Shown here: one piece after another, positions 47,051 to 52,713 of the stretch
Layout: every line of letters starts with the position of its first letter
Numbering within the stretch: the stretch's first letter is position 1
NCBI RefSeq assembly: GCF_014873145.1
Contig: NZ_JADBEK010000001.1
Coordinates: 7,378,001 to 7,442,000, forward strand
Source: Nonomuraea angiospora
Lineage (GTDB): Bacteria; Actinomycetota; Actinomycetes; Streptosporangiales; Streptosporangiaceae
Direction: 5' to 3'
Length of the DNA stretch: 64,000 nucleotides
Position numbers and translations under genes: made by a program
Notes under the pieces: generated by a model
What the model saw: the letters and a program-made list of their open reading frames with translations, nothing else
Told to the model about the DNA's origin: nothing
Database searches by the model: none

Positions 47051-48100
47051 ATGCCGGTGAGCTTCACTCAGCACAACGTTGGATCACGCATCGACCGTCG
47101 CCTGGCCGGTTTCCTCGAGACCTGGCGAGCTCCCGTCGACGACCCCGACGTCGAGGCGGCGTACCAGTTGCTCACCGACTTCGTCCTCAACGGCGGCAAG
47201 CGCGTCAGGCCGCAGCTCTGCTACTGGGGCTGGCGGGGCGCCGGCGGGGGCGACGGCGACGAGATCATCACCGCCGCCGCGTCCCTGGAGCTCTGCCACG
47301 CCGGCCTGCTCATCCATGACGACATCATGGACGGCAGCGAGCTGCGGCGCGGCCGGGCCACCGTGCACAGGAGCCTGGCCGGGCTGCACCGCGGCCCGGG
47401 CTCGGACGCGTTCGGGCAGGCGGGCGGCATCCTGCTCGGCACGCTGAGCCTGGCCTGGTCCGACACCATGCTGTCGTCGTGCGGCGTGGAGCCGCACCGG
47501 CTGCGGGCCGCGCACCACGTGTTCGACACGATGCGCACCGAGGTCATCAGCGGCCAGTATCTCGACGTCCTGGCCCAGCTCCGCTCGGGCGCGAGCGTGG
47601 ACGAGGCGCTCACGGTGATCCGGTTCAAGACCGCCAAGTACACCGTCGAGCGGCCGCTGCAGATCGGCGGCGCGCTGGCCGGGGCCTCGCTGGAGCTGCT
47701 GGAGTCCTACTCGCGCTTCGGCCTGCCGCTGGGCGAGGCGTTCCAGCTCCGCGACGACGTGCTCGGCACGTTCGGCCTGGAGTCGGAGACCGGCAAGTCG
47801 GCGCTGGACGACCTGCGCGAGGGCAAGCACACCGTGCTCGTCGCGCACGCCGTACGGCGGGCCACCCCCGCCCAGCTCACCCACCTCAGGAGGTGGCACG
47901 GCGACCCGGAGTTGACCGAGGAGCGCGCCGAGGAGCTGCGGGAGATCCTGCGCGACACAGGAGCGCTGGCCGAGGTCGAGGAAATGATCGAAGACCGGGT
48001 GCGCGAGTCCGTCACGGCGCTGGCCGCGGCGCGGATGGAGCCGGAGGCCGCCAGAGCGCTGGCCGTGCTGGCCGACCAGCTCGCGCACCGCACCAAGTAG
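47051..48100 (+). CDS. Polyprenyl diphosphate synthase, candidate encapsulin cargo
   Basis: The 349-residue protein is a short-chain isoprenyl diphosphate synthase. It has GGKRVRPQL (48-56), the first Asp-rich motif DDIMD (90-94) with the following LRRGRAT, and the second motif DDVLG (235-239). It condenses IPP with allylic diphosphates to geranyl, farnesyl or geranylgeranyl diphosphate. ATG 47051 has AAGGAG 7-9 nt before it. It is the first gene of a co-directional set with IspH, a family 2B encapsulin and geosmin synthase. Polyprenyl transferases are known neighbours and proposed cargo of family 2 encapsulins. The product chain length cannot be fixed by eye; farnesyl diphosphate would feed geosmin synthase. 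Confidence 0.88.
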   Translation: MPVSFTQHNVGSRIDRRLAGFLETWRAPVDDPDVEAAYQLLTDFVLNGGKRVRPQLCYWGWRGAGGGDGDEIITAAASLELCHAGLLIHDDIMDGSELRRGRATVHRSLAGLHRGPGSDAFGQAGGILLGTLSLAWSDTMLSSCGVEPHRLRAAHHVFDTMRTEVISGQYLDVLAQLRSGASVDEALTVIRFKTAKYTVERPLQIGGALAGASLELLESYSRFGLPLGEAFQLRDDVLGTFGLESETGKSALDDLREGKHTVLVAHAVRRATPAQLTHLRRWHGDPELTEERAEELREILRDTGALAEVEEMIEDRVRESVTALAAARMEPEAARALAVLADQLAHRTK

Positions 48101-48112
48101 GGGGTTCCCCAG

Positions 48113-49054
48113 ATGGGACAGGTTCTTCTCGCGGCCCCGCGCGGCTTCTGCGCGGGCGTCGAGCGTGCGATCAGCACCGTCGAAGAGGCGTTGAGACGCT
48201 TCGGTCCACCGGTCTACGTGCGCAAACAGATCGTGCACAACACATACGTGGTCGACGACCTCACCCGGCGCGGCGCGATCTTCGTCGAGGAGCTCGACGA
48301 GGTCCCCGACGGCTCGCTGGTCGTCTTCTCCGCCCACGGCGTCGCGCCGGTGGTCAAGGAGGAGGCGGGGCTGCGCGGCCTGCGGACGATCGACGCCACC
48401 TGCCCGCTGGTCACCAAGGTCCACAAAGAGGCCGTGCGCATGGCCGAGGCGGGCTACGAGATCGTGCTCATCGGCCACGCCGAGCACGAGGAGGTCGAGG
48501 GCACGTTCGGCGAGGCCCCCGAGCGCATCCACGTGGTGGACCCGGCCAGGCCCGACGAGCTGACGGCGGGCGGCTCGCACCCGATGAGCTGGCTGTCGCA
48601 GACCACGCTGGCCGTGGACGAGACCATGCAGGCCGTCGCCGAGCTGCGCAAACGCTTCCCCCAGCTGGTCGACCCGCCCAGCGACGACATCTGCTACGCC
48701 AGCCAGAACCGCCAGGAGGCGATCACCAGGATCGCCCCTCGGTGCGAGCTGGTCATCGTCGTCGGCTCCGCCAACTCCTCCAACTCCCGGCGGCTGGTCG
48801 AGGTGGCACTCAACGCGGGCGCGGGCGCCGCCTACCTGGTCGACCGGGCCGCCGACGCCGACGAGCGCTGGCTCGACGGCGTGCGGACCGTCGGGGTCAG
48901 CTCCGGTGCCTCCGTCCCCGAGCGGCTGGTCGGGGAGTTACTCGGCTGGCTCGCCGCCCACGGATACGACGACGTGGAGCCGGTGACCGTGACCGAGGAG
49001 ACCCTCACGTTCTCCCTGCCGCTCGAAATCCGATCCACCCGCAACCCCGGCTAG
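48113..49054 (+). CDS. ispH: 4-hydroxy-3-methylbut-2-enyl diphosphate reductase
   Basis: The 313-residue enzyme of the MEP pathway reduces HMBPP to IPP and DMAPP using a [4Fe-4S] cluster. Cluster ligands Cys13 (PRGFCAGV), Cys97 (DATCPLV) and Cys194 ([11 protein letters not shown]) are present, with the conserved His in QIVHN and SAHG and Glu in GHAEHEEV. It lies 12 bp after the polyprenyl synthase gene, so supply of C5 units and their condensation are co-expressed. An IspH duplicated into a terpene cluster often boosts precursor supply; whether a second ispH exists elsewhere cannot be seen here. Confidence 0.95.
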
Positions 49055-49084
49055 GTCCCAAACCCAGATTGGTGGTGCAGCACG

Positions 49085-50503: not shown

Positions 50504-50516
50504 GCGAGGGACCGGA

Positions 50517-50548
50517 CGGCCGGCACCGCCTGCGCGCGGTGCCGGCCG
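50517..50548 (+). terminator. Intercistronic hairpin between encapsulin and geosmin synthase genes
   Basis: CGGCCGGCACCGC pairs perfectly with GCGGTGCCGGCCG (13 bp), loop CTGCGC. It ends 12 bp before the AAGGAG ribosome site of the synthase. It may attenuate or stabilise, giving excess shell over cargo. Confidence 0.65.
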
Positions 50549-50571
50549 ATTACTTACCTGAAGGAGTTGGC

Positions 50572-52713
50572 ATGAGCCAGCCGTTCGAACTGCCGGACTT
50601 CTACATGCCGTATCCGGCGCGGCTGAACCCGCATCTCGAAGAGGCTCGCGCGCACTCCAGGCAGTGGGCGCTCGAGCTGGGCATGTCCGAGGGCTCGGGC
50701 ATCTGGGAGGAGGCCGACCTCGACGCCCACGACTACGCGCTGCTGTGCTCGTACACGCATCCCGACTGCGACGCCGTCGAGCTCTGCCTGATCACCGACT
50801 GGTACGTGTGGGTCTTCTTCTTCGACGACCACTTCCTGGAGGTCTTCAAGCGCACCGGCGACCTGGCGGGCGGCAAGGCGTACCTCGACCGGATCGCGCA
50901 GTTCATGCCGATGGGCGATGACCTGACCATGCCCGAGCCCACCAACCCGGTCGAGGCGGGCCTGGCCGACCTGTGGGTGCGCACCGTGCCCAGCAGGTCT
51001 GCGGACTGGCGGGCGCGCTTCGCCGAGAGCACCAGAAACCTGCTGAACGAGTCCCTCTGGGAGCTGGCCAACATCAACCGGGGGCGGGTGGCCAACCCGG
51101 TCGAGTACATCGAGATGCGCCGCAAGGTCGGCGGGGCGCCCTGGTCGGCGGGGCTCGTCGAGCACGCGGTGGGCGCCGAGGTGCCCGCCCGGCTGGCCGG
51201 GACCCGGCCGCTGCGGGTGCTGAAGGACGCCTTCGCGGACGGGGTCCACCTGCGTAACGACCTGTTCTCCTACGAGCGGGAGGTCGGGGACGAGGGCGAG
51301 CTGAGCAACGGCGTGCTGGTGCTGGAGAGGTTCCTGGGGTGCGGCACGCAGGAGGCCGCCGACGCGGTCAACGACCTGCTGACCTCGCGGCTGCAGCAGT
51401 TCGAGCACACGGCGCTGGGCGAGCTGGGCCCGCTGTTCGTGGAGTACGGCGTCGACCCGCTCACCGCGGCCGGCGTGCTGGCCTACGTCAAGGGGCTGCA
51501 GGACTGGCAGTCGGGCGGGCACGAGTGGCACCTGCGCTCCAGCCGCTACATGAACAAGCGGGTCGCCGCCCGCAAGCCGCTGGGCATGCCGTCGATCGTC
51601 AACATGCTGGGGGCCAAGCGGCTGCGTAGCTTCACGTACGTGCCGTACCAGCGGGTGGGGCCCTCGCGGATCCCCGGCCTGCAGATGCCCTTCCAGGTCC
51701 GGCTGTCGCCGCACCTCGACGCCGCCCGGCGCAACACCGTGGCCTGGTGCCGGGAGATGGGGATGCTCGACTCGACCCTGTGGGACGAGCGACGGCTCCT
51801 CGACCTCGACCTGCCGCTGTGCACCGCGGGCATGCATCCCGACGGCAGTCCCGAGGAGCTGGACGTGGCGTCGTACTGGATGGCGTGGGGCACGTACGCG
51901 GACGACTACTTCCCGGCCGTCTTCGGCCGGTCACGCAACCTCGTGGCGGCCAGGATCGCGGTGGAGCGGTTCTCGGCGTTCATGCCGCTGGACGGATCGC
52001 CCGCGCCGGCGCCCACGAGCGTGCTGGAGCGGGGCCTGGCCGACGTCTGGGCGCGCACGGTGGGGTCGATGCCGCCGGAGGGGCGCCGCGAGCTGCGCGA
52101 GGCGGTCGAGACCACGTGCCTGGCCTGGCTGTGGGAGCTGGGCAACCAGTTCGCCAACCGCATCCCCGACCCTGTGGACTTCATGGAGATGCGCCGGCAG
52201 GCCGCCGGCAGCGAGCTGACCATGAGCTTCAGCCGGCTGCGGAACGGCCGTCGGCTCCCCCGCGAGCTGCGCGAGAGCGGGCCGATCCGGTCGCTGGAGA
52301 ACACCGCCGCCGACTGCGGGACGCTGCTCAACGACGTCTTCTCCTACCAGAAGGAGATCGAGTTCGAGGGTGACCTGCACAACGGCATCCTGGTGGTGCA
52401 GCACTTCTTCGACTGCGACTACCCGACGGCGCTCGGCATCGTGACCGACCTGCTGGACTCGCGGATGGGCCAGTTCCAGCACATCGTCGAGCACGAGCTG
52501 CCGGTCGTGCGCGACGACCTCGACGCGGACGCCCGGCAGGACCTCGACGCGTTCGTGGACGGGCTGCGCAACTGGGTGGCCGGGGTGTTCCACTGGCACC
52601 ACCACTGCTCCCGGTTCGACGAGGACTCGCTGCTGCGCCACAACCGGGTGCCCGAGCGGCGGCTGGGCGGCCCGACGGGCCTCGGCACCTCGGCGGCCTA
52701 CGCGGGCAGGTGA
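50572..52713 (+). CDS. geoA: Two-domain terpene synthase: germacradienol/geosmin synthase
   Basis: The 713-residue bifunctional class I terpene synthase turns farnesyl diphosphate into germacradienol (N-half) and then geosmin (C-half). The N-half has DDHFLE (85-90) and NDLFSYERE (229-237), the C-half DDYFP (444-448) and NDVFSYQKE (587-595). Both metal-binding motifs in each half are intact. Overall sequence from the first residue ([19 protein letters not shown]) closely follows streptomycete geosmin synthases. The C-terminus ends [19 protein letters not shown] GPTGxGT-type motif also occurs in the N-terminal extension of encapsulin-associated 2-MIB synthases, so this tail may be a shell-loading tag (inference). 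AAGGAG lies 5 nt before ATG 50572. Confidence 0.93.

Follow-up and report, generated by a model that had tools for sequence, protein, structure and literature searches.

A probable Family 2B encapsulin operon for geosmin in Nonomuraea angiospora with a single, Enc1-type shell gene

Geosmin-synthase-like cyclases were put forward as putative cargo of Family 2B encapsulins by Andreas and Giessen (2021; PMC8346489). In that work, 165 Family 2B systems encoding a cyclase together with a polyprenyl diphosphate synthase (PT) were reported, and the cyclase motif was described as occurring in one copy between the domains and in another at the C-terminus. The shell proteins have been divided into Enc1 and Enc2 types on the basis of their place and of two motifs (Dutcher et al., 2025; PMC12407261). 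In Streptomyces lydicus, Sl-Enc1 alone forms no shells, Sl-Enc2 alone does so, and the two proteins mix, and all cargo types but xylulose kinase have also been reported in single-component operons (PMC12407261). The pairing of a geosmin synthase with an encapsulin cannot be presented as new, having been published for Family 2B (PMC8346489) and for Myxococcota (PMC12224551) and is modelled by NCBIfam. The operon described below was found in Nonomuraea angiospora, in a stretch of 64,000 nt (assembly GCF_014873145.1, contig NZ_JADBEK010000001.1, positions 7,378,001-7,442,000, forward strand) that was analysed as a whole and is called the window; the host genome has 13.09 Mb.

Four genes, encoding a PT, IspH, an encapsulin shell protein and a geosmin synthase, follow one another on the forward strand of the window at 47051-52713, with intergenic gaps of 12, 30 and 35 bases, which agrees with the four closely spaced, co-directional genes of the initial annotation. 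They very probably make up a geosmin operon of the Family 2B encapsulin type, in which the synthase would be loaded into the shell by means of a C-terminal tag. From the genes, their order, the active-site motifs, the tag and a conserved upstream block, all read from the DNA, we infer the loading, the substrate flow and the product as follows. In the cytosol, IspH would raise the supply of C5 diphosphates and PT would make farnesyl diphosphate; a nanocompartment would be formed by the shell protein and loaded with the synthase through the disordered tag; and farnesyl diphosphate would then enter the shell, to be converted there into geosmin.

The shell protein is covered by the Family 2B model NF041163 over residues 20-470 and also matches the HK97-fold, SrpI-like shell domain PF19307 (459 bits), the SrpI-like stretch being at residues 219-470. 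A fold of the cyclic nucleotide (cNMP)-binding type, PF00027, lies ahead of this stretch at residues 117-203; the domain named in the initial annotation is present, and in this family it reportedly binds no cyclic nucleotides (PMC12407261). The best solved relative is 9bje (676 bits over residues 11-469), and both proteins contain the sequence LLATVWKDP. The TVWK motif at residues 338-341 agrees with diagnostic motif 1 of Enc1 proteins, and 9bix and 9bhu carry RRR; we take 9bhu to be the S. griseus shell. In a tree of 144 shells, the window protein falls within an Enc1 clade of 46 rows, to which two-shell operons contribute 33 and one-shell operons 13, and the 33 Enc2 rows make up a separate clade.

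Conservation was followed in 118 genomes of relatives, including 54 of Nonomuraea (G000-G053). Of the 118, 66 proved to have a geosmin synthase and 72 a Family 2B shell. All 52 Nonomuraea synthase genes, from 51 of the 54 genomes, have a same-strand shell gene within 6 kb, as have 8 of the 17 synthase genes from outside the genus. The synteny of shell and two-domain synthase, which had been proposed as an in silico check, is thus conserved in relatives; the opposite outcome, a unique synteny together with a synthase devoid of any shell-binding segment, does not hold, a tag-like segment being present as well. The nearest named shell match is that of Nonomuraea jabiensis (97% protein identity), whose operon likewise has one shell gene; the best 30 of 80 named shell loci all belong to Nonomuraea, 29 of them with a synthase in the same stretch as the shell, and the shell-synthase order is also found in other genera. 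In 46 Nonomuraea genomes the genes are ordered PT-(IspH)-Enc1-(Enc2)-synthase, an arrangement named here type A. This group comprises 43 genomes with a full synthase, one (G019) whose synthase is cut by a contig end, and two (G020 and G053) with no synthase; every one of the 46 has PT, and 31 have IspH (phmmer score >300). Since operon order is kept across the genus, the arrangement is not due to chance, and this conserved operon belongs to a class of encapsulin operons already in print.

A second arrangement, type B, occurs in seven Nonomuraea genomes with eight synthase genes; the synthases are more distant relatives, and seven of the eight are flanked by a shell gene on either side. The type-B Enc2 genes of G013, G033 and G003 (stretches L141, L143, L144 and L145) have one in-frame stop each, which may represent decay or sequencing error. 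The synthase tree unites the 43 type-A sequences with 30 from another family (f20) in a clade of 73, separate from the remaining synthases of the family to which the type-A sequences belong, a placement that hints at horizontal transfer. A geosmin synthase from another actinobacterial family (L146, 7994-11259) adjoins a shell of 363 residues that matches the 2B model only past the cNMP-domain part (422.6 bits), this domain being apparently absent.

The synthase contains two terpene synthase domains with metal-binding motifs in each. With the solved germacradienol/geosmin synthase 5dz2, its N domain gives a match of 571 bits, and residues N240, D241, S244, E248, D455, D456, N598, D599, S602 and E606 are invariant among 36 aligned synthases, D96 and D97 being nearly so. 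Both family models and intact catalytic motifs thus bear out the annotation of the pair as a Family 2B shell and a complete two-domain geosmin synthase. Translation probably starts at ATG 50572 rather than at GTG 50539, because the resulting N-terminus fits the consensus of the aligned synthases. The C-terminal copy of the published cyclase motif lies at residues 711-720, and the inter-domain copy is absent; among Nonomuraea rows, a weak look-alike of the latter was seen only in G016. The linker between the domains measures 40 residues in 35 of the 43 type-A synthases (range 34-48), and synthases that keep a motif copy there have linkers of 44-95 residues. The tag segment is predicted to be disordered, pLDDT values (the AlphaFold2 confidence score) lying below 50 at residues 1-12, 340-355 and 705-724 in a model with a mean of 87.4.

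The tag was found in all 43 type-A Nonomuraea synthases, where nine of the ten motif columns are common to at least 41 of the 43 and the flanks are variable. Tags were further counted in 134 distinct synthases (135 minus one duplicate), after exclusion of frames no longer than 600 residues (that of G019, for example). With a loose motif sought near the frame end, so that some counted tags are weak variants (e.g., G216 and G068), and with two tags outside that motif accepted by eye (G129 and G060), a C-terminal tag or variant was present in 87 of 87 synthases having a same-strand shell gene in the fetched stretch. Of the 47 synthases with no adjoining shell gene, 26 were tagged, 20 untagged and 1 undecided.

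Several observations weigh against the loading of geosmin synthase into a shell. The window synthase scores 1091.7 bits with NF041168 ('family 2 encapsulin cargo terpene cyclase'), below its cut-off of 1200, a value surpassed in only 4 of the 118 relatives although 66 match the model at E 1e-150. The tag state changes only four times on the synthase tree, and the link between tag and shell is not significant when kinship is considered, the independent-pairs test of tag against shell adjacency being underpowered; with so few changes, the tag counts are consistent with a shell-dependent tag and do not prove it. Tagged synthases are also found in G058 and G173, where no Family 2B shell was found, and the untagged synthases with no adjoining shell indicate that some geosmin synthases need no encapsulation. 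Finally, G020 and G053 keep PT, IspH and shell genes (L152, 7185-11034, and L153, 8734-12583), but the synthase is gone from the locus, where the end of an opposite-strand gene lies 28 bases downstream of the shell gene, and no geosmin synthase was detected elsewhere in these two genomes at E 1e-150.

These data bear on the reading in which the shell gene is a mere neighbour and geosmin synthase is active as a free cytosolic enzyme, as untagged, shell-less synthases presumably are. The 20 untagged synthases and the clean synthase loss in G020 and G053 point in that direction, but every shell-adjoining synthase carries the tag or a variant of it, and the gene order is kept genus-wide and found in other genera. 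Moreover, G020 and G053 are close kin, and their loss of the synthase counts as one recent event. A mere neighbourhood is accordingly considered quite improbable, and the shell retained in these two genomes fits either service to another cargo or a loss too recent for decay.

For the upstream enzymes, there is no indication of a place inside the shell. The locus had been interpreted as an organelle comprising shell, synthase and both upstream enzymes, which would make and store the odorant; the pairing of shell and synthase, with its conserved tag, stands, whereas the location of PT and IspH inside the shell, as well as storage, found no support. The best NCBIfam match of PT is the farnesyl/geranyl diphosphate synthase model NF042416 (277.5 bits, below the cut-off of 600). 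Against the encapsulin-cargo model NF041169 it reaches 274.5 bits, below the cut-off of 450, which two PTs from Kribbella and Saccharothrix shell loci do pass. Proteins of the NF041169 type are characterized by an N-terminal disordered domain of 50-100 residues, a feature not seen in the window PT, whose PF00348 match begins at residue 38 of 349. A tag-like motif was found in 0 of 46 PT and 0 of 31 IspH proteins of type-A Nonomuraea, and PT and IspH were consequently rejected as tagged shell cargo. The genome encodes another IspH and four further PTs, making the operon enzymes extra copies; given this redundancy, the proximity of PT to farnesyl/geranyl synthases and its score below the cargo cut-off, both enzymes are read as a probable cytosolic precursor supply. 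The cysteines of IspH, seen in GFCAGV, DATCPLV and DICYA, are presumably its iron-sulphur ligands.

What sets the operon apart, as judged from sequence comparison, is that its Enc1-type shell is an orphan, for which a partner may be encoded in trans. Enc2 is present in 33 and lacking in 13 of the 46 type-A operons, the window operon having Enc1 alone; the motifs follow this division, with VWK in 46 of 46 Enc1 and RR in 33 of 33 Enc2 proteins. The absence of Enc2 corresponds to six changes on the tree used for the trait comparison and to seven on the synthase tree of 43. A two-component operon would have two shell genes within 10 kb, and in the window genome the second shell gene is 1.95 Mb away. 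It belongs to a 2-methylisoborneol (2-MIB) cluster, made up of an RR-type shell (MRRK; 719 bits, above cut-off), a cargo cyclase (NF041167, 443 bits) and a geranyl diphosphate 2-C-methyltransferase (NF041943, 524 bits), the two enzymes also scoring above cut-off.

This distribution allows a reading in which the Enc1-type shell of the window needs the RR-type partner from the 2-MIB cluster, and mixed shells could hold both synthases, the tags of which are near-identical. The S. lydicus proteins provide the precedent, as Sl-Enc1, unable to assemble by itself, carries TVWK, and Sl-Enc2, able to do so, carries RRRK. A second shell, of the MRR type, is encoded elsewhere in 13 of 13 Enc2-less type-A Nonomuraea genomes, compared with 14 of 33 Enc2-bearing ones (Fisher 0.0002), and the 19 genomes with no such trans shell all retain Enc2. 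A 2-MIB-synthase-like gene lies in the fetched stretch of 24 of the 27 trans shells, including all 13 of the one-shell genomes. Simulations on the tree gave 52/5347 (0.010) with Enc2 loss simulated and 214/4579 (0.047) with the trans-shell trait simulated, but an independent-pairs test of Enc2 loss against trans shell is unable to reach significance.

The same trend was apparent when shells were classified in 118 of the 142 genomes with a Family 2B shell (24 were unfetched, and five weak shell matches near 1e-110, in G080, G086, G092, G100 and G108, were excluded). VWK-type 2B shells occur in 70 of these 118 genomes and coexist with an RR-type shell in 69 of the 70, the exception being G204, which has a VWK shell only and a genome 86% complete. 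Genomes with a single shell have the RR type in 45 of 46 cases, the RR call for 12 Nonomuraea genomes resting on the shell alignment. A DNA pattern for VWK shells was insensitive (it missed G145, G262 and G406, which are VWK in the shell alignment, and gave extra hits in the shorter shell matches of G080, G086, G100 and G108) and was not used in the counts. An RR shell was also present in each of four more genomes, picked because no second shell accompanies the VWK shell at its locus; two of these loci lie at contig ends, and one of the RR matches is partial and below cut-off.

Dependence on a distant partner is nevertheless rated as rather unlikely. The Family 2A shells 6x8m and 8t6r also carry VWK and have solved capsids, 6X8M being a published Family 2A structure (PMC8346489); VWK is thus a mark of lineage and by itself no bar to assembly. 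In the 86% complete genome G204, the VWK shell has no RR partner, and no upstream element common to the geosmin and 2-MIB loci was seen. It is likewise rather unlikely that the two clusters build one mixed encapsulin loading both odorant synthases, with Enc2 lost repeatedly as the 2-MIB shell substitutes for it. Self-assembly of the orphan shell is regarded as fairly probable: Enc2 loss would be neutral, and the connection with the 2-MIB cluster would reflect shared ancestry. This agrees with the single-component operons reported for nearly all cargo types (PMC12407261), with the VWK-bearing capsids and with the small number of changes, about six, on which the correlation of Enc2 and trans shell rests. 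It has to accommodate the facts that every Enc2 loss seen is in a genome with a shell at the 2-MIB locus and that a VWK-type 2B shell is hardly ever the sole shell of its genome.

Upstream of PT, the Nonomuraea sequences share the block CTTTACAC..T..GT.TT....GA.TAACTA..GGTAG, the opening octamer of which is found in 43 of 45 aligned upstreams, its surroundings being less conserved. Because a sigma-70 promoter scan upstream of PT returned 0 sites, a promoter function of this block is something we infer rather than observe. A TTTACA-based search did not find the block upstream of the 27 trans shells, which share a different, weaker conserved block. In Streptomyces, expression of both geoA and mibA-mibB depends on bldM, with BldM acting directly at the eshA-mibA-mibB promoter and WhiH at geoA (PMC8549240); co-expression of the two loci without a shared site would thus not be odd. 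On the opposite strand of the shell gene, at 49136-49629 (-), a match to Rfam RF02735 (Sernc350, a Saccharopolyspora antisense RNA) was detected with 50.9 bits for a threshold of 50; it may reflect shared coding sequence only, or the described antisense RNA over an encapsulin gene.

The operon is preceded by divergent genes for a zinc alcohol dehydrogenase and an NAD-dependent epimerase at 44566-46855 (-), as in many relatives. Downstream, an NlpC/P60 gene at 53935-54531 (+) lies between genes for two related small proteins, at 53314-53625 (-) and 54711-54977 (-), the first of which begins much as a signal peptide does and matched no Pfam or NCBIfam family. This set adjoins the geosmin operon in many Nonomuraea, and the small proteins are possibly surface proteins. 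Features of the operon are collected in Table 1.

Table 1. Coordinates of the geosmin encapsulin operon and its associated elements in the window
Feature	Coordinates	Strand	Evidence
Conserved promoter-like block upstream of PT	46984..47021	+	alignment of Nonomuraea upstreams
Polyprenyl (probably farnesyl) diphosphate synthase, PT	47051..48100	+	PF00348, 166 bits
IspH	48113..49054	+	PF02401, 298 bits; NF002189, 501 bits vs cut-off 444
Family 2B encapsulin shell, Enc1 type	49085..50503	+	NF041163, 769 bits vs cut-off 400; TVWK motif
Two-domain geosmin synthase	50539..52713, probable start ATG 50572	+	PF19086 twice
C-terminal synthase tag, candidate shell-loading segment, residues 711-724	52669..52710	+	published motif

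Nonomuraea sisters with one or two shell genes, along with the two genomes that lost the synthase and kept the shell, offer a ready comparison for studying loading and the need for each subunit. If a subunit from a distant locus does complete the shells, operon-based counts of 'single-component' encapsulins will need redoing. The wordings 'in trans', 'orphan' and 'elsewhere in' are absent from PMC12407261. In the literature on encapsulins with geosmin, 2-methylisoborneol or terpenes, covered for the most part by titles and abstract openings, there was no report of the Nonomuraea operon and none of an experiment on a geosmin-synthase encapsulin, nor was any paper on both Nonomuraea and encapsulin found. 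A genus in which most operons have two shells (Enc1 with VWK and Enc2 with RR) and the window operon has Enc1 alone was likewise not found in print. An encapsulated 2-MIB synthase was reportedly described in a 2024 paper, and eshA is presumably the shell gene of the Streptomyces 2-MIB operon.

That operon, eshA-mibA-mibB (PMC8549240), has its counterpart in the 2-MIB cluster of the window genome, which differs from the geosmin operon in its RR-type shell, in the N-terminal position of the tag and in its product. The geosmin clusters of Myxococcota, in all of which encapsulins are reported (PMC12224551), resemble the window operon in joining a shell to geosmin genes; they come from a different phylum, and the available part of that report does not mention IspH. 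With the Sl-Enc1/Sl-Enc2 pair of S. lydicus (PMC12407261), whose motifs link it to 9bje and 9bix, the window shell shares the TVWK of Enc1; unlike that putative xylulose kinase system, the window operon has no Enc2. In the Family 2B geosmin-type systems (PMC8346489), a two-domain synthase with a C-terminal motif also adjoins the shell gene. From these, the window operon departs in a synthase whose 40-residue linker holds no motif copy, in a PT that is located upstream and belongs to another lineage, and in the presence of IspH between PT and shell.

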